A stretch of DNA of 48,852 bases, taken from the IMG/VR virus record IMGVR_UViG_3300025652_000119, positions 1 through 48,852 of that record. One strand, 5' to 3'. The position numbers were made by a program, and so were the translations under genes. Source of the stretch: a virus. Shown here piece by piece: positions 3,368-48,474 of this stretch. How positions within the stretch are numbered: the first letter of the stretch is position 1; each line of letters opens with the position of its first letter. Under the pieces are notes generated by a model that was not told the DNA's origin, searched no databases, and was given only the letters and a program-made list of their open reading frames with translations.

Positions 3368-4531
3368 CTACTTTAAATTAACTTGTAAATATCCTTCACA
3401 TCCTTTTTCTTTGTTCCATATATAAGCTTGTGCTTCTCTTGGAGCGCTATAACCTTTACTCTTATGCCATGCATCGTTTGTACATATACTAGGAAGGAAT
3501 CTAACCTTTACTCCTTGGTACGTGTTGACAATTTCTCTGTGGAGATGTCCGCAGTGGACTTCTCTATTTGGGCATGCCGCAAACATGAGCGGTTGTTCTG
3601 TTGCCATAAGAAGGGGCATGTCTGCCGTTTTCTCTTTATCCCCATGCGTGAACATAAGCATATTCTTTCCGTATCGGTAGTATTTTCTTGACTCATAACT
3701 ATTATCTACTGTCACTGCACTATAGTCTTTATACCAAGACTCTATTACTTCTCCTATATAAAACATGCGCTCAAAGTCGTGGTTACCTTGTACTACTATA
3801 ACATCTACTGGTGCAAATGCTGATAAGTAATCTATAGCAACAACTAACAATTTCCAATACCCTCTAAAAGTTTGTTGCCATTCTTCAGCGTCATGCTGTG
3901 GCGTACCTTTAGTAGTAGCTCTACTAAACCCTTCCGAGTTTAATCCATCGTTACCAATAGGTAGGATGAATTTTTCTATATTTAATCCTTCAGCTTTTCT
4001 ATGCAATTCTTTAATGGTGTTTAAAAAATCTCTATTAGCTTGGGCTTGCGATATAGTTCCTATCTTACCATAATGAAAATCAGGTAAAGATATTTCGTAC
4101 GCTACAAGAGATCCTACTTTAAAATTATAGACAGGGTCTATAGCTTGTGGGATATACTCTTTCATTTCTTCAAAGAACTTCTTTTTAAATTCAGTTAGAT
4201 TTCCTTTGTCTTCTTTAGTTACAATAGAAAATCTGTATTCTCCTGAACCAGATTGCCAGTGCTTAACTGACTGTACATCTTTTTTATCAATCCCTCTTTC
4301 TTTTAGATGTAAATCAAGTTCGGGCATCATTGCTGCAGTAACTTCTCCTACTTCTTCTGTAGTATTAATGTTAGAGTTATTCTCTACCCATTTGTATCCT
4401 CCTGCATAATTTCTTAATCCTTTAAGGCATTTATAGATATTACTTTTATCTATACCTAAAGCTTGAGCTGCCTCAAACCCGCTTGAGAATTCATCTATAA
4501 GATTTCCTTCTCGATCATACTGCTGTATCAT
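3368..4531 (-). CDS. NUMOD-type DNA-binding domain fused to metallophosphoesterase
   Basis: Residues 1-50 (QYDREGNLIDEF, GFEAAQALGIDKSNIYKCL, YAGGYKW) fit the NUMOD1-like helix-turn-helix repeat usually found at the ends of homing endonucleases. Residues 140-350 carry the calcineurin-like metallophosphoesterase motifs: D151-F-H153, GND at 193-195, GNHD at 249-252, HGD at 296-298 and GHLH at 328-331. The enzyme probably cleaves phosphodiesters in nucleic acid (Mre11/SbcD-like) or dephosphorylates a nucleotide. No homing nuclease domain is present. Its start overlaps the end of the holin gene by four bases (ATGA), placing it in the late operon between lysis and tail genes. The catalytic set looks complete; the substrate is unknown. 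Confidence 0.75.
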   Translation of the reverse strand: MIQQYDREGNLIDEFSSGFEAAQALGIDKSNIYKCLKGLRNYAGGYKWVENNSNINTTEEVGEVTAAMMPELDLHLKERGIDKKDVQSVKHWQSGSGEYRFSIVTKEDKGNLTEFKKKFFEEMKEYIPQAIDPVYNFKVGSLVAYEISLPDFHYGKIGTISQAQANRDFLNTIKELHRKAEGLNIEKFILPIGNDGLNSEGFSRATTKGTPQHDAEEWQQTFRGYWKLLVVAIDYLSAFAPVDVIVVQGNHDFERMFYIGEVIESWYKDYSAVTVDNSYESRKYYRYGKNMLMFTHGDKEKTADMPLLMATEQPLMFAACPNREVHCGHLHREIVNTYQGVKVRFLPSICTNDAWHKSKGYSAPREAQAYIWNKEKGCEGYLQVNLK

Positions 4532-12200: not shown

Positions 12201-15200
12201 TTGAGACATAGGCATATTATTACAATCACAAGCGTCATCAACATTTACTTGACCTGTACAACCACAATAAAGTCCATGCAATTGTTCTGAAGTTTCTCCC
12301 TCACAGTTACAAGGTTTTTCAAGATTTTGTTGCAAAATTCCTCCCATATACACTTTTTCTATAGGATCACCATTACAATCACAGTGAGTTCCTACAGGAA
12401 GATCTCCTTCACAACTACAATATTTTCCATCCCAATATTGAGGACTTGTAGAGTTTTGATACTCAGAAAGACTATCGCTAGGTATTACAGCAGCACCTGA
12501 ACAATCACAATAACCTTCTTCTAATCCTTCTTGTAAAAATGTAGCTTGGCCACATGTTCCACAATAATTAGGTAAAAGCGCATTATCACAATCACATCCG
12601 CTAAAAGGGTAGCTACATAAAGAGTCGTCTTGTACCCAATACCCTTGTCCAGAAGGAGTGGGAGTTCCAGGACTTACAAAATTACATGCACTTGAGTTTC
12701 CACAATAACTATAACTACATCTAGAGTTGTCTTCAACACTAAATCCAAAAACAGGTTCTTCATAATTAGAAGCTTCAGTGTCTGCACAAACCCCACAAGT
12801 TGATCCAGGGTCAGGAATTTCAGATGCATTTTCTTCTGTGCCTGCTACAAAATTTGTTGCATAACATTCTGAACACTGAGGTTCTATACTTTCTCCACAA
12901 TCACATTCTACAAAACCTTCTGAAGTGCTGTCTGCTACTGCACCTGTCCCTCCAATTGCTTCAGGTCCGTTATTTGCAGGGCTAACACATCTTGATGGTA
13001 TCGTAGCATTACTTATATAATTACAGTTTTCTAATCCTATACTATTGTATTCATCCATACATCCTGTAACCCCAGAGTATGTAATACTAGTTGCAGTAAA
13101 ATTAAATCCTGAAACATTTGAAGAAATATCAGGTCCTTTAATTGTAATTTGATCTCTTGTAATATTGTTATCTTGTTGAACATCATTTTTATATGATGTC
13201 CAAGCACTTTCTGCGTCACTAGACGAAGAGTAACTCATAGAAAAAATATCTTTGTAAGATACATCTCCTGCGTTTATAGCAAATAAAGCGTAGTAAGTGT
13301 TATTATAATTTAAAGGATTTACTATTACACCTAAAGAAGGATATTCATTTTCCCCATTAGCTCCTGCATAATCTGAAGATACTATTTTTCTAGCTGATAT
13401 ATATATACCATAATCTTTTGCTACAAAAATATTATCAATACTAACGGTACTAATATCAGATAATTCTGAATCTACTGAATTTGCTATAGTAAACCTTGGA
13501 TCAAAACTGTCAGAAAATTGAGTAGGCAACCCTTCTCCTTGCGTGTCTGGAAAAGGGTCTACATGTTTAACAACTGCTTGAGTCAAAGTACTTTCTAAAT
13601 TTAATAAATTAACTTGCATTAAATAATCACGTACTCTTCCGTAATCGCTACTTTGATTAGTACCTAAAATATATAATGTAAATCCTATAGGATCATAAAT
13701 TAATTTTTTAGGCATTACCTTTGTAAAATTGTAATCTCCTGCTCCTTCTAAATTACTAGCTCTTTGATAGTAAGTAGATAAAGCGTCACAATTTATTAAT
13801 GTTAATTCTCCTAACTCTTTATCAATACTATATACTAAAATATAGTTATCTCCTTGACCTAAATTTATAACAAAAGTTACTGAAGTATTTTGTAAGTCAG
13901 AGTAAGAACTAAAAGTTATATTATTAATTTGCTCTGTAGATAAATTTTCAAAAGAGTTGTTATAAAGTTCTGCTGTTTGTAAATCTGATAATATATATAC
14001 AAGATGAGTCGAGCTAAATTCTATATTAGAATTAGGAAAGTCCCAATTGTTTCCATCATATAATTTTTTTATATAATAAGCATTAAAATTAGTATCTAGT
14101 TTATTAAATCTTAATGCAACTTTACCAAATTCATTAAGCTCTAGATTTATAATCCAATAACTATTTTCTGTTATTTGAATTTCTCCAAAACCATTTGCTA
14201 AATAACTAGTATCAGTGCAATTTAAATTTGATACACTTAAAGTACTAGTAGGGTGCGCAGATAATTGATAGTTATTTGAAAAAGCTGTCGAGTACTGAGT
14301 GCAAGTTAAATTAACTGTTCTATCAGTTGGCTTTGAAGGAAAACTAAAAACGTAGTAATGATTTGTAACGCTATCAGTTCTACCAAATTCTCCTGGCCAT
14401 AAACCACGATTATTTACTCCTACTATAGAAGGAGTTATAAAAGGTTTAGCTCCTGTGTTATGATCTGGGTAAACTCTATTTTCTACAGTATAGTTTAAGG
14501 CCGCATCAAAATATTTAATAGCAATAGTTTCAGCGTTAGATCCATTTGAATCTAATGATACATCATCTTTAGTAGTTCCAATGTAAATACCTGAAGTGTC
14601 TGAGTTAGGGACTATACTATATTTATGATATTGATTTTCAGAACTAGCGTCTACTTTAGATAAAGTTTTTACAAAATGAACAATAGGAGTATCTGCAAAA
14701 TTAGTTATAGTATGTGACCCAAAACTATTTCCAGATTTTATTCTGCTTAAGGTACTACCAAAATATCCTGGACTCGCAGGAGAATATTTTAAAGCTGGTG
14801 ATGAAGTTACTTGCGCTAAAGTTGACGGCAATTCTATTATAGGAGTAGAAGTAGTAGTTTCATTAATCCACGATTGAATATAAGATACTTCAGGGGATTC
14901 TGCATTTACATTAAAAGTGTTAGTATTAAAGACAATTTTAGGAACCTTAGAATCACTTATATAGTAAGTAGGAATATCTTGAGAAGTATGTATTGTTATT
15001 GCTGAAGTAGGCACAGTCTCTTCTGCGCTTCTAACCTTATGTCTTCCTTTTTCTAACCAATTATCAAGTTCTATGTTTGAAGACATAGAAGGTAAAAAGT
15101 CAAAATTAGTAGATGTAGTTTTAACAAAAGCTTTTGTAAAACTTGCAAATTGACTTACAGTAACAGACAATCCTGGCTCAATTATTTTTATATATTCATT

Positions 15201-40840: not shown

Positions 40841-41103
40841 AATTCTATTTCAGGAAATAAAACATCTGCTTTGTTTTTATCAATAACAGAGATAGATGCT
40901 TTAACATATCTTGCTACATCGCGTGCTTCTAATCTTTCTTCTTGATTAGAATCTATTCCTAACTTTGATTGCGCTTTAGCATTCATATGAAGTAGTTTAT
41001 CTATTTGGTATAAATTAGTGTACTTTTCTAAACAATTAGAACATAGTTTAGAATTTAAAGAAAACTTAAAATGTTTTCTCACTGCTTTTTCAATAACGTC
41101 CAT
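40837..41103 (-). CDS. Hypothetical protein, 88 residues
   Basis: Unrecognised. It is helical and charged with a CSNC pair near 21-24 and an ARDVARYVKASISVIDKN segment. It overlaps the winged-helix gene by four bases, so the two are translated together. Nothing indicates a membrane or catalytic role. Confidence 0.5.
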   Translation of the reverse strand: MDVIEKAVRKHFKFSLNSKLCSNCLEKYTNLYQIDKLLHMNAKAQSKLGIDSNQEERLEARDVARYVKASISVIDKNKADVLFPEIEL

Positions 41104-43897: not shown

Positions 43898-44042
43898 CAT
43901 AGACTCAGTAAATAAACTCATTAAAGACTTTAAACTAAAAAGTAAAACAAATCCATTTAGAAATTATGAAAAAACTAACAACTCCAGAGAAAATCCAAGA
44001 ACAGATCTTAAAGACATTCCAAGAAAAGAAAGAGCATTTTAA
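43866..44042 (+). CDS. Small basic protein, 58 residues
   Basis: From an ATG at 43866 a frame encodes KKLKKKPRYNIDSVNKLI and a Lys/Asn/Arg-rich tail. An in-frame ATG at 43836 is also possible but lies deeper inside the preceding gene. It overlaps the next gene by 77 bases in another frame, more than normal here, so it is either a real overlapping gene or a decayed one. Confidence 0.4.
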   Translation: MKKLKKKPRYNIDSVNKLIKDFKLKSKTNPFRNYEKTNNSRENPRTDLKDIPRKERAF

Positions 44043-44382
44043 AGGTAAAATACCTCAAAAGCTAAAAGATATACCAAAGAAATTTCTACAGCCTTCTTAT
44101 ATGAAGCAGGTTAGAGATTATGAAACAGGTGGATGGAAGAAAGAAAGAGTAGAGAATATACATTGGACTAAAGCTCGTACTAAAATATCAAATAGTAAAA
44201 GAACAACTAGAAACACACCAAAGTTTGATACTAATCTAGATGTTACTATTGAACCACGTCAAGAGCGTGTAGATATTAAAGATATTGAGATGACAATTAG
44301 TTTGCCATCTAACATGACTGCAAAAGCTTTTATAGATTTTGTAGCTATGATAAAGAAATCAGGGGCTAAGTATAGCCTCTGA
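43966..44382 (+). CDS. Hypothetical protein, 138 residues
   Basis: The 138-residue protein is basic in its first half (KIQEQILKTFQEKKEHFKG, KLKDIPKKFLQPSYMKQ) and has a beta/helix C-terminal unit (VDIKDIEMTISLPSNMTAKA, FIDFVAMIKKSG). No family is known. It is the last gene before the 660-base non-coding region. The first predicted RNA helix starts four bases after its stop. Confidence 0.55.
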   Translation: MKKLTTPEKIQEQILKTFQEKKEHFKGKIPQKLKDIPKKFLQPSYMKQVRDYETGGWKKERVENIHWTKARTKISNSKRTTRNTPKFDTNLDVTIEPRQERVDIKDIEMTISLPSNMTAKAFIDFVAMIKKSGAKYSL

Positions 44383-44385
44383 TAG

Positions 44386-44585
44386 TGCCTGAGAAAGTGC
44401 GTAACATAGCACGTTGAGTAACTGACGAGTTGCTATTATGTAGTCCTGTTGCACGGCAGGCAAATATAACAAACAAGAAGTAACGGTGCGGCAAAAGGGG
44501 ATGTACCTTTCGTTCACGTTGAGGTTTTGCATGCTAGCTGCATATAATATTAAGCCCAAGAAGTGGGTCCCCTCCTTGTTTGTTT
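44386..44585 (+). ncRNA. Candidate structured non-coding RNA upstream of tRNA-like array
   Basis: No gene is seen between 44383 and 45041. Several helices can be drawn: TGCCTG (44386-44391) with CAGGCA (44457-44462) enclosing GTGC/GCAC (44397-44412), and GCAAAA (44491-44496) with TTTTGC (44525-44530). Together with the three tRNA-like elements it may form one RNA of about 600 bases. Large phage RNAs such as GOLLD and ROOL are known to lie by tRNA genes, but I cannot match either. Confidence 0.35.
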
Positions 44586-44587
44586 AC

Positions 44588-44662
44588 AAAGTACATGGTG
44601 CAAGAACATTTACTATAAAAACAATAGGTTCTTGGCAGGTTCGATTCCTGCATACTTTACCA
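44588..44662 (+). ncRNA. tRNA-like element 1
   Basis: AAAGTAC (44588-44594) pairs, except its last base, with ATACTTT (44652-44658), followed by ACCA. A perfect T arm lies at 44635-44651 (GCAGG-TTCGATT-CCTGC). Between them ATGGTG is followed by CAAGAAC, which pairs perfectly with GTTCTTG just before the T arm. This long stem replaces the D and anticodon arms. A cloverleaf of 75 bases can be forced, but it lacks U33 and a D-loop GG. Confidence 0.6.
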
Positions 44663-44718
44663 CTAGAAAGGTCGTGATATTCGACGTAATCCTAAGCAAG
44701 ATGACAAAAGGCTTAACT

Positions 44719-44772
44719 AAAGCATATGGTACTAGTGCACTAGTGTAGGTTCGATTCCTACATGCTTTACCA
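44719..44772 (+). ncRNA. tRNA-like element 2 (54 bases)
   Basis: AAAGCAT (44719-44725) pairs perfectly with ATGCTTT (44762-44768), then ACCA. The T arm GTAGG-TTCGATT-CCTAC is at 44745-44761. The entire interior is ATGGT plus the hairpin ACTAG-TGCA-CTAGT. At 54 bases it is too short for an anticodon arm, so it is a minimal acceptor plus T-arm mimic. Confidence 0.65.
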
Positions 44773-44900
44773 ATAGTAGTGAGTTTGTAGTACCTGAAAA
44801 AGCAATAACCGTTGAATACGTAATAGACACGGCCAAAGGCAGCTTGGAGGTAAACAACTTTGCAACAAACAATCAGCAATGAGAGTTGCTACTATATTAT

Positions 44901-44985
44901 AAAGCAAATGGTTAGAAGAATGAATAAATACTCACAGTAGTCCCTTTATATACTTTTGCAGGTTCGATTCCTGCGTGCTTTACTA
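44901..44985 (+). ncRNA. tRNA-like element 3
   Basis: AAAGCAA (44901-44907) pairs at six of seven positions with GTGCTTT (44975-44981), followed by ACTA instead of ACCA. The T arm is GCAGG-TTCGATT-CCTGC (44958-44974). ATGGTT follows the acceptor strand. The 46-base centre contains ATAAA/TTTAT and AGAAG/CTTTT pairings but no canonical anticodon stem with a seven-base loop. Confidence 0.55.
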
Positions 44986-45041
44986 TGCATAAGCATAAAC
45001 AACAACACAATTATTTATTAATCAGTTAAAAAAACAAAAAA

Positions 45042-45731
45042 ATGGCTGAAACAACTCAAACAACAACAGTAGCTCAAGAAGTTACAAATGCAACACCAGT
45101 AAAAATTCATGGTATTGTCCCAACAGTAAACCCAAATGTATTCCAACTAATTTTACGTTCGGAAAACGAAAAGCCTTCGGCAGCAGGTAGCGGACCAGAA
45201 GGATTCTCTATGTTTATGAGTACATACTCACAAAACAACGTAGAAAAAAGAGTTAAATATCATGCAGTAGATGCTAACTTCCTAGAAGGTTATAATCTTG
45301 CAGACGTAACTCGTGGAGCTGATGGTAAAGTACAATCTGTAGACTTAAACAATGTTGACCCTGTGTCAGGTGAAATGATTAGTGGTGCAATAGAATTAAG
45401 TAGTTTAAAAAGAGTTAAGGACATTAAAAATCCTTTAAATGGTAATTCTATTTTACCTGAAACATTACCTGAACACAAACTTGTTCTTACAGAGACTTTT
45501 GTACAAAAGTTTAACAAAGACAAGAATGATATGATTACTTGGAGTCAAAAGCCTAAGCAGAATCCTTCTACTAAGGAAACACTATGTAATCAAGGTAAAC
45601 CAATTTATAGAAATGTGGATCTTACATTTGACACGGAAAAGCAAGATGTATACATCAAACATGATGGTACAGAGCCTGCAAGTGTAAATGCAGATCCTTT
45701 TAGTACTACTTCAGATGGATTAATGGGGTAG
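45042..45731 (+). CDS. Replication-module protein, possible ssDNA-binding protein
   Basis: The 229-residue protein begins AETTQTTTVAQEVTNATPVK and has a beta-rich middle (HGIVPTVNPNVFQLILRSEN, VEKRVKYHAVDANF) and a flexible acidic C-terminus ending DPFSTTSDGLMG. It is followed by its own terminator and precedes the polymerase genes, where phage single-stranded DNA-binding proteins often lie. The OB fold is not proven from sequence. It starts 57 bases after the third tRNA-like element, behind an A-rich leader. Confidence 0.5.
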   Translation: MAETTQTTTVAQEVTNATPVKIHGIVPTVNPNVFQLILRSENEKPSAAGSGPEGFSMFMSTYSQNNVEKRVKYHAVDANFLEGYNLADVTRGADGKVQSVDLNNVDPVSGEMISGAIELSSLKRVKDIKNPLNGNSILPETLPEHKLVLTETFVQKFNKDKNDMITWSQKPKQNPSTKETLCNQGKPIYRNVDLTFDTEKQDVYIKHDGTEPASVNADPFSTTSDGLMG

Positions 45732-46251: not shown

Positions 46252-46597
46252 AAAGGAGTTTATAATTCGTATGATTATGTTAATCAACGAGTTACCAGAA
46301 GAAAAGAAGCGCGATCAATTTGCGCTTCTAAACTTCTTGGAGTTCCAATTAAAATCTCGAGATCATTTGTTTGTTGAAGAATTTATCACTAATCTTACAG
46401 CTAAAATTAATCGTAACGAAGTATTTTATGGGCAAGCACACATTAAAAGAATTGTTCTTTCGGTCATCGAAAAGTTTGGAGCAGAGAGTGAATATAATTT
46501 CAAGGTTCCAGACTATTACGAAAAGCTCCTGCAACAAGATTTGGGCAGCGAGACAAATAGAGCTACTATTGAGAAAATTAAACAAGAAACTAAATGA
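46235..46597 (+). CDS. Hypothetical helical protein, 120 residues
   Basis: The 120-residue protein is helical and charged (EFIIRMIMLINELPEEKK, LLNFLEFQLKSRDHLFVEEF, QAHIKRIVLSVIEKFGAE). It overlaps the AT-hook gene by 17 bases and shares an ATGA overlap with the polymerase gene. Close coupling to the polymerase suggests a replisome accessory; no family was recognised. Confidence 0.5.
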   Translation: MSSETRKEFIIRMIMLINELPEEKKRDQFALLNFLEFQLKSRDHLFVEEFITNLTAKINRNEVFYGQAHIKRIVLSVIEKFGAESEYNFKVPDYYEKLLQQDLGSETNRATIEKIKQETK

Positions 46598-48474
46598 TAC
46601 AGTTCGTAGGAAATCCAAAACTCCTTGATTGCTGTGAAACCACTAACAACATTTGGCCTGTAGTAGAATATTGCAAAACTAAGAAAGTTATTGCAGTGGA
46701 TACAGAAACTACAGGCTTATCCCATACGTCAAGTGACATGATTATGTTACAAATAGGTGATAAAGATCGTCAGTTTGTAATAGACACAAGATATGTTGAC
46801 GTAAAGCCACTAAGAATAATATTAGAAGATAGTAATATATTAAAGATACTACACAATGTTAAGTTTGACTATAAGTTTCTTATGAAACATAATATTAGAC
46901 TTAATAATGTGTGGGATACTATGCTAACTTCACAAGTTATACATTGTGGTAAGGATATGAGACACAGTTTAAACTCTGTGCTTAGTAGAGAACTAGAGAT
47001 TGAGATGGACAAAACTGTTCGTCTTAATTTCCTACTAAAAGGTAGTGATGAATTTACAGAATCAGAGATAATATACGGTGCTAAAGATGTAGAACATCTT
47101 GTGCAACTATATGAAAAACAGCTTACTAAGGCTCAAAGTCTTGATGTATTACCAACAGTTCAACTAGAGAATAATGCAGCACTAGCGTACGCAGATATTG
47201 AGTACAATGGTATTGCACTAGATGTAAAAGGTTGGAATAAATTGACAGACAAAGCTACGCGTAAGGTTAAATCTATGGAACTTGTATTAGATGCATACAT
47301 AGAATCTAACGCAGCACTTAATAAGTTTGTAAGTTCTTATATCCAAGGAGACTTATTTATAAGCACTGAAGAAATAAGAAAGGTGAATGTTAAATGGAGC
47401 TCACCAAAGCAAGTACTAGATGTATTTAAAACATATGGACTTAAGGTAGAAGATGTAAACGGTAAGAACTTACACGTTTATAGTAAAGATCCTTTTGTCA
47501 AAACATATATTAAATACAAAGAACAAGCTAAACTATCTACAAGTTATGGAACTAAGTTCCTAGACAATGTAGATGATGACGGCAGAATTCGTACTAGCTT
47601 TAAACAAATACTAAATACAGGTAGAGTTGCATCAGGTAAGCCTAACATGCAACAGATACCTGCAGATAACGACTATCGTAACTGCTTTATAAGCGGATTA
47701 CCTGGTTGGGTGTTTGTATCAGGTGACTACAGCTCGCAAGAGTTGTGTATTATAGCCACAGGGAGTAAAGATCCCGTGTGGATTAAAGCACTAGAAGAAG
47801 GTAAAGACCTTCATAGTGTGTGCGCAGATTTAGTTTATGGTAGAGAGTGGTATGAAGCCGCTGAAGAAAACTGTGCTTATTTTGTAGGCGATGCCAAACA
47901 AAAATGTAATTGCAAAGAACATAAAAGACTGCGTACAAATGTAAAAAGTATAAACTTCGGTTTAGCCTATGGTATGGGGCCACACAAACTAGCTGACACA
48001 TTGCTTATCAGTATTAAAGAAGCAGAAAGATTAATTCAGAAATACTTTACAGCATTTCCTGCAATTAAAAACTTTCTAGAGTCTCTTGGTAATTATGGTA
48101 AGTGGAACGGATATATTAGAACATATGCACCGTACAGACGTATCAGATGGTTTGAAGAGTGGCAGGGTATAAATACAGACAAAGCTATGCTAGGTAAGAT
48201 AGAGCGTGCAAGCAAGAACACACCAATTCAAGGTAGTGGTGCTGACATGTGTAAATCTGCACTAGTTATTGTACGTAATTATATCCATGATAACAAATTA
48301 CCTGTTAAACTAGTGATGACAGTTCATGATCAAATTGACACTATAGTACACGAAAGTTATAAAGACGAGTGGTGTACTAAACTTCAAGAGCTTATGGAAC
48401 AATCAACACTAGATATTATACCATCAGGGCTACTAAAAGCAGAGACAGAAATATCAACAGTATGGAAAAAGTAA
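46594..48474 (+). CDS. Family A DNA polymerase with 3'-5' exonuclease
   Basis: The 626-residue protein has an exonuclease domain with DTETT (D36, E38), HNVKFDYKFL and YGAKDVEHL, and a polymerase domain with motif A DYSSQEL (D378), motif B KSINFGLAYG (451-460) and motif C VHDQID (H578-D579-Q580). It lacks the 5'-3' exonuclease domain of bacterial Pol I, as in T7-like and some crAss-like enzymes. Motif C normally ends in HDE; here Q replaces E. It should be the main replicative polymerase. It is preceded and followed by overlapping small genes. Confidence 0.92.
   Translation: MIQFVGNPKLLDCCETTNNIWPVVEYCKTKKVIAVDTETTGLSHTSSDMIMLQIGDKDRQFVIDTRYVDVKPLRIILEDSNILKILHNVKFDYKFLMKHNIRLNNVWDTMLTSQVIHCGKDMRHSLNSVLSRELEIEMDKTVRLNFLLKGSDEFTESEIIYGAKDVEHLVQLYEKQLTKAQSLDVLPTVQLENNAALAYADIEYNGIALDVKGWNKLTDKATRKVKSMELVLDAYIESNAALNKFVSSYIQGDLFISTEEIRKVNVKWSSPKQVLDVFKTYGLKVEDVNGKNLHVYSKDPFVKTYIKYKEQAKLSTSYGTKFLDNVDDDGRIRTSFKQILNTGRVASGKPNMQQIPADNDYRNCFISGLPGWVFVSGDYSSQELCIIATGSKDPVWIKALEEGKDLHSVCADLVYGREWYEAAEENCAYFVGDAKQKCNCKEHKRLRTNVKSINFGLAYGMGPHKLADTLLISIKEAERLIQKYFTAFPAIKNFLESLGNYGKWNGYIRTYAPYRRIRWFEEWQGINTDKAMLGKIERASKNTPIQGSGADMCKSALVIVRNYIHDNKLPVKLVMTVHDQIDTIVHESYKDEWCTKLQELMEQSTLDIIPSGLLKAETEISTVWKK

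Follow-up and report, generated by a model that had tools for sequence, protein, structure and literature searches.

How can three short elements that begin and end like tRNAs, but lack a decoding half, have arisen and been kept in a phage genome? They lie in a 659-base gap between two ORFs of a 48,852-base virus record, which we analyzed in its entirety (hereafter the window) and which encodes a portal of the crAss-like type (phrog_6547) and a DNA polymerase. A first-pass annotation, made from the sequence alone, had described them as selected tRNA mimics rather than products of random decay, and had suggested that they could recruit a tRNA-processing enzyme, serve as excised processing signals, or act as decoys for tRNA-targeting defence systems. 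We examined the three elements and found them exactly at the positions and with the lengths given by that annotation (Table 1). Each has an acceptor helix of 6, 7 and 6 bp, respectively, with a mismatch at the T-arm end in the first (C/A) and the third (A/G), a shared ATGGT after the 5′ acceptor strand, and a perfect 5-bp T stem with the loop TTCGATT. The window contains three exact copies of GGTTCGATTCCT, all of which are located here. None of the interiors has a normal anticodon loop, and the interior stem of the third element (AGAAG/CTTTT) is weak.

Table 1. Coordinates of the tRNA-like elements (TLS) and of other features mentioned in the text
Feature	Record	Coordinates	Strand	Length	Composition or remark
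ORF before the gap	window	43966-44382
Conserved non-coding stretch	window	44391-44466			AGTGCGTAACATAGCACGTTGAGTAACTGACGAGTTGCTATTATGTAGTCC...
Non-coding module with long closing helix	window	44468-44584
TLS 1	window	44588-44662	+	75 nt	acceptor AAAGTAC/ATACTTT; ATGGTG linker; interior 7-bp stem CAAGAAC/GTTCTTG; T arm 44635-44651; 3′ ACCA
TLS 2	window	44719-44772	+	54 nt	acceptor AAAGCAT/ATGCTTT; interior hairpin ACTAG-TGCA-CTAGT; T arm 44745-44761; 3′ ACCA
TLS 3	window	44901-44985	+	85 nt	acceptor AAAGCAA/GTGCTTT; 50-nt linker and interior; T arm 44958-44974; 3′ ACTA
Hairpin directly after TLS 3	window	44984-44997	+		TATGC-ATAA-GCATA
Gene downstream of TLS 3	window	45042-45731	+	229 aa	no Pfam or PHROG family
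DNA polymerase	window	46594-48474
ORF with NUMOD/I-HmuI-like domains	window	3368-4531	-
Divergent T arm	L007	3570-3970			CGTGG-TTCGATT-CCACG-TCACTCC-ACTA
TLS at gp53 start, Indlulamithi	NC_048824.1	40963-41008			annotated gp53 start at 40980
TLS in annotated gp49, Predator	NC_011039.1	39207-39250
Gap beside the TROVE gene, crAss001	MH675552.1	95964-96870		900 nt
T arms, Streptococcus phage Javan87	MK448833.1	about 13950-14120			second: AGGGACA-ACGGTTGTAA-GTCGG-TTCGATT-CCGAC-TGTTCCT
TLS followed by a hairpin	G016	2537, 2889, 4523 and 6010

To test if known RNA families could account for these elements, we searched the window with ARAGORN, which called no tRNA or tmRNA, and with Rfam, which gave nothing at gathering score. 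With permissive settings, Rfam yielded a sub-threshold tRNA match to the middle element only (22.5 bits, cut-off 29), and matches to Plastid-ycf2 on the opposite strand were taken as an artefact, since that family resembles an antisense tRNA end. A nucleotide search with the leader revealed no similarity to named phages. In contrast, a covariance model built from 20 minimal elements of other phages, from which the elements of the window had been left out, found TLS 2 at 42.1 bits (E = 1.5e-8) and gave weak matches to TLS 1 (18.5 bits, by its T arm) and TLS 3 (21.1 bits). The minimum free energy fold of TLS 2 showed the acceptor and T helices, whereas the spacers between the three elements gave only weak z-scores for structure.

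Next, we sought relatives of the 229-aa protein encoded downstream by protein homology, and therefore without reference to the RNA, and found that most of their genes carry such an element at or near the same place. TLS 3, for example, is present before the homologous genes in the loci L005, L006, L008, L011 and others. Close relatives have the interior stem of the first element with a compensatory change, as CAAGAAC/GTTCTTG becomes CAAGCAC/GTGCTTG, and one has CAATAATA/TGTTATTG around a longer insert. Noticeably, more distant relatives (30-35% protein identity) carry a 46-nt form with no interior, which in L032 and L034 reads AAAGCAT-ATGGTACAAGT-GCAGG-TTCGATT-CCTGC-ATGCTTT-ACTA, while L027 has GAAGCAT/GTGCTTC and L026, before another ORF, has GAGTG/CACTC. 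In L007 the T arm before the same gene is different and its 5′ partner could not be placed with confidence, so divergent is the element, whose interior may be about 260 nt. The replaced decoding half of the first-pass annotation is thus an optional insert into a minimal acceptor-T minihelix. The conserved non-coding stretch listed in Table 1 is shared with divergent relatives, including L005 and L034, and several further non-coding modules with long closing helices lie around the TLS.

To test if these elements form a class, we searched for ATGGTA, GTTCGANTC and ACTA at set distances without asking for any pairing, which gave 73 loci in IMG/VR and 36 in one genome each for 84,980 bacterial and archaeal species. 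A full T stem and at least 6 of 7 acceptor pairs were found at 55 of 74 viral sites and at 1 of 36 cellular ones, the latter being a 5.8-kb contig whose TLS and flanks match the phage locus L311. The acceptors are diverse, including TGTCAC/GTGACA, AGCATA/TATGCT, CGCTCT/AGAGCG, ACCCGT/ACGGGT and GGTCAG/CTGACC. Pair counting on an alignment of the elements looked overwhelming but is circular, because its rows had been chosen for pairing, and we rely instead on the pattern test and on the shuffled-upstream null described below. When the covariance model was run over 12 bacterial genomes (about 57 Mb, best 150 candidates each), its only strong hit was that phage contig, at 48 bits, and the next best scored 25 bits. 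No convincing TLS was found in the named relatives crAss001, phi14:2 and Fpv1, and hits in marine virus AG-345-E02 and Lactococcus WRP3 were apparently coding sequence and a normal tRNA, respectively. These results indicated that the window's elements belong to a very well supported family of D-arm-less, anticodon-less tRNA-like elements in phages, with an acceptor helix, a roughly 11-nt linker carrying [T/C]GGT, a perfect T arm and a 3′ end R-C-N-A that is rarely CCA, into which hairpins of various sizes are inserted at the anticodon position. We found no description of such elements in open papers, although an earlier description in journals outside these cannot be excluded.

We then determined where the elements lie relative to genes. 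In 51 distinct cases the median distance from the TLS to the next same-strand start codon is 34 nt, and 47 lie within 120 nt 5′ of a same-strand ORF, against 21.5% of random ORF-free segments. Several phages carry more than one copy, each between genes. A blastn search with TLS sequences led to cultured phages, among which Mycobacterium phage Indlulamithi, on the host M. smegmatis mc2 155, has 13 TLS in its gp40-gp57 region, one in every gap of 85 nt or more plus one at the gp52-gp53 junction. Eleven of the 13 start 5-13 nt after the stop codon, and most end 31-43 nt before the next start. Of 14 T arms in that stretch, 13 have an acceptor and a GG linker, against 0.42 expected when the upstream sequence is shuffled, and none lies on the other strand. 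Predator has 6 such elements in 50 kb, at least 5 of which fill successive intergenic gaps, one metagenomic contig stretch has 11 in 11.6 kb, and units between successive genes of one operon were also seen in L418, L422 and L431. Over 63 distinct elements of this actinophage-like set, 48 of 62 start 4-13 nt after a stop codon, with modes of 9 and 8 nt, against 7.7% of control positions, whereas in the crAss-like set only 8 of 56 follow a stop codon as closely. These counts ignore relatedness between phages, and most contigs are metagenomic, with hosts that are not established.

In the actinophage-like set, the acceptor plus T stem is 11 or 12 bp in 62 of 63 elements (the search required at least 11), compared with 11-13 bp in the crAss-like set. 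The linker is usually 11 nt (42 of 63), and the search required GG followed by T or C near its start. The 3′ end was not used to find the actinophage-like set and is therefore informative: position 73 is A or G in 58 of 63, position 74 is C in 58 of 63, and position 75 is G in 44 and C in only 2. So the RNA keeps the R-C of RCCA but rarely the second C. In the crAss-like set the commonest 3′ end is ACTA, partly because the search pattern asked for it. Energy folding of TLS 1 and several of the 46-nt forms in isolation preferred another pairing, UGGU with ACUA or ACCA, over the acceptor helix, but that pairing is broken when the 3′ end is ACAA or ACGA, whereas the acceptor helix is kept with many different base pairs.

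A unit that keeps what RNase P and RNase Z read, drops what translation reads, and sits between stop and start codons is best explained as a cis-acting processing signal, which among the roles offered by the first-pass annotation fits best. Each element folds in the transcript into the top half of a tRNA, an acceptor helix stacked on the T arm, and we infer, without RNA data to show cleavage, that the GG of the linker stands in for the D-loop GG that docks on the T loop, and that RNase P of the host would cut at the 5′ side and RNase Z or other 3′-processing nucleases at the 3′ side. This would separate the upstream RNA, a gene or a non-coding stretch, from the downstream message, which then begins with a short leader carrying its own ribosome site, and the interior, not being needed for recognition, is free to vary or be absent. 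The parts kept are those of the RNase P model substrate, acceptor stem, T stem and T loop, and RNase P is known to cut phage M3 and C4 RNAs, T4 gene 32 mRNA and operon mRNAs (PMC11143913). The absence of CCA fits RNase Z, which appears to be blocked by CCA in many bacteria, but RNase P prefers CCA over UAA at the 3′ end of a T4 dimeric precursor (PMC11143913), so 3′ cutting and CCA addition may come first. In the window, TLS 1 and 2 would separate non-coding stretches, not genes, which counts against this reading, and TLS 3 would define the 5′ end of the message for the 229-aa protein. On balance, this enzymatic mechanism is more likely than not, and it is somewhat more likely than not that diverse tailed phages (crAss-like phages, phages of Mycobacterium and perhaps of Streptococcus) use a natural 44-46-nt half-tRNA as a genome-wide punctuation system, in which host tRNA-maturation enzymes cut polycistronic transcripts into single-gene messages. 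If cleavage is confirmed, phages would have a further general way to process transcripts beside RNase III and RNase E sites, nature would supply minimal substrates for RNase P and RNase Z, and tRNA punctuation would be shown outside organelles.

Among the closest known systems is the tRNA punctuation of mitochondrial transcripts, where RNase P and RNase Z excise tRNAs between mRNAs. As there, tRNA-shaped units lie between genes of a polycistronic transcript, just after one gene and before the next, but the phage unit is not a decoding tRNA, lacks the D and anticodon arms and usually CCA, and is in a DNA phage. The RNase P model substrate AT1 (McClain, Guerrier-Takada and Altman 1987, described in PMC11143913) is synthetic and joins the parts directly, whereas the phage element is natural, has a roughly 11-nt GG linker and usually lacks CCA. 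The mascRNA-menRNA family, in which RNase P cleavage of a small tRNA-like unit makes the MALAT1 3′ end, gave weak Rfam matches to two Indlulamithi TLS (22-23 bits, cut-off 42.5 for RF01684), but it is an animal RNA and probably keeps D-like and anticodon-like stems. The tRNA-like domain of tmRNA also has an acceptor and T arm, with a D loop that lacks a stable D stem, but the TLS have no mRNA-like domain or tag frame, ARAGORN found no tmRNA, and Rfam tmRNA stayed below its cut-off. Unlike the tRNA-like structures of RNA viruses, which are 3′-terminal in an RNA genome, the TLS are internal and intergenic in DNA phage contigs.

ALTERNATIVES. We also considered whether the TLS are released and act in trans as small RNAs, as decoys or inhibitors for tRNA-targeting defences, RNase P or tRNA-modifying enzymes, since they keep the acceptor and T arm that some tRNA-targeting nucleases bind. 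This is unlikely, as the copies sit one per intergenic gap at near-fixed distance to stop and start codons, which a trans role does not require, and, with the anticodon loop absent and C rare at position 75, neither anticodon nucleases nor CCA-specific nucleases have their target. About equally doubtful is a role in translation, in which a structure just after the stop codon or before the start codon controls termination, readthrough or re-initiation. The gap of 8-9 nt usual in actinophages is probably close to the spacing of readthrough stimulators, but in the crAss-like set the gap varies widely, TLS 1-3 do not closely follow an ORF, and downstream genes in G042 (another of the phage records) and Indlulamithi show their own purine-rich ribosome sites. 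Moreover, any stable hairpin would serve, so the tRNA-specific T loop, GG linker and 3′ R-C would not need to be kept.

Much less likely still is that the TLS are phage Y RNAs of the YrlA type, which tether Ro60 to nucleases. YrlA RNAs carry a tRNA-like domain (PMC7790460), with other sequence at the anticodon position, and also occur in phages; in crAss001, the gap beside the Ro60 (TROVE) gene holds tRNA-like RNAs, one matched by Rfam tRNA over 144 nt, which are likely Y RNAs. However, no TROVE gene was found in 45 TLS-bearing records, several of which are fragments, while the crAss001 control was positive; the TLS have no D arm and gave no Rfam match to a Y RNA family, and the 46-nt form has no room for a Ro60-binding arm. 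These are therefore not YrlA RNAs in their usual setting. Similar T arms also occur in tRNAs and in attachment sites, for example attL of phage phiv205-1, but an origin as decayed tRNA genes or attachment-site fragments is effectively refuted, since both acceptor strands change together across many elements, several phages carry many copies, and decay would not leave an 11-nt linker in so many elements. Neither a canonical tRNA call in the window or in relatives nor homologues that are truncated tRNA remains were seen, which supports the view of the first-pass annotation that these are selected mimics.

Because standard tRNA finders and Rfam miss these elements, phage annotation overlooks them and sometimes places start codons upstream of or inside them. 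The annotated start of Indlulamithi gp53 lies inside a TLS, and a Predator TLS lies inside annotated gp49, and both starts are probably placed too far upstream. Streptococcus phage Javan87 has two T arms in the gap before the terminase small subunit gene, the second of which looks like a TLS. The hairpin directly after TLS 3, also seen as TATGC-GTAA-GCATA in L006, is not a general feature of the class, as a hairpin followed 22 of 52 TLS against 17.4 expected, which is not significant. Nevertheless, in the crAss-like phage G016 each of the four TLS in Table 1 is followed by a hairpin with a changing stem (stems GACCCG/CGGGTC, GAGCC/GGCTC and GAGTC/GACTC occur in this phage) and a similar ACCAC loop, then a CACAAA tail. 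Apart from the TLS, one ORF of the window joins NUMOD/I-HmuI-like domains with a calcineurin-like phosphoesterase domain.
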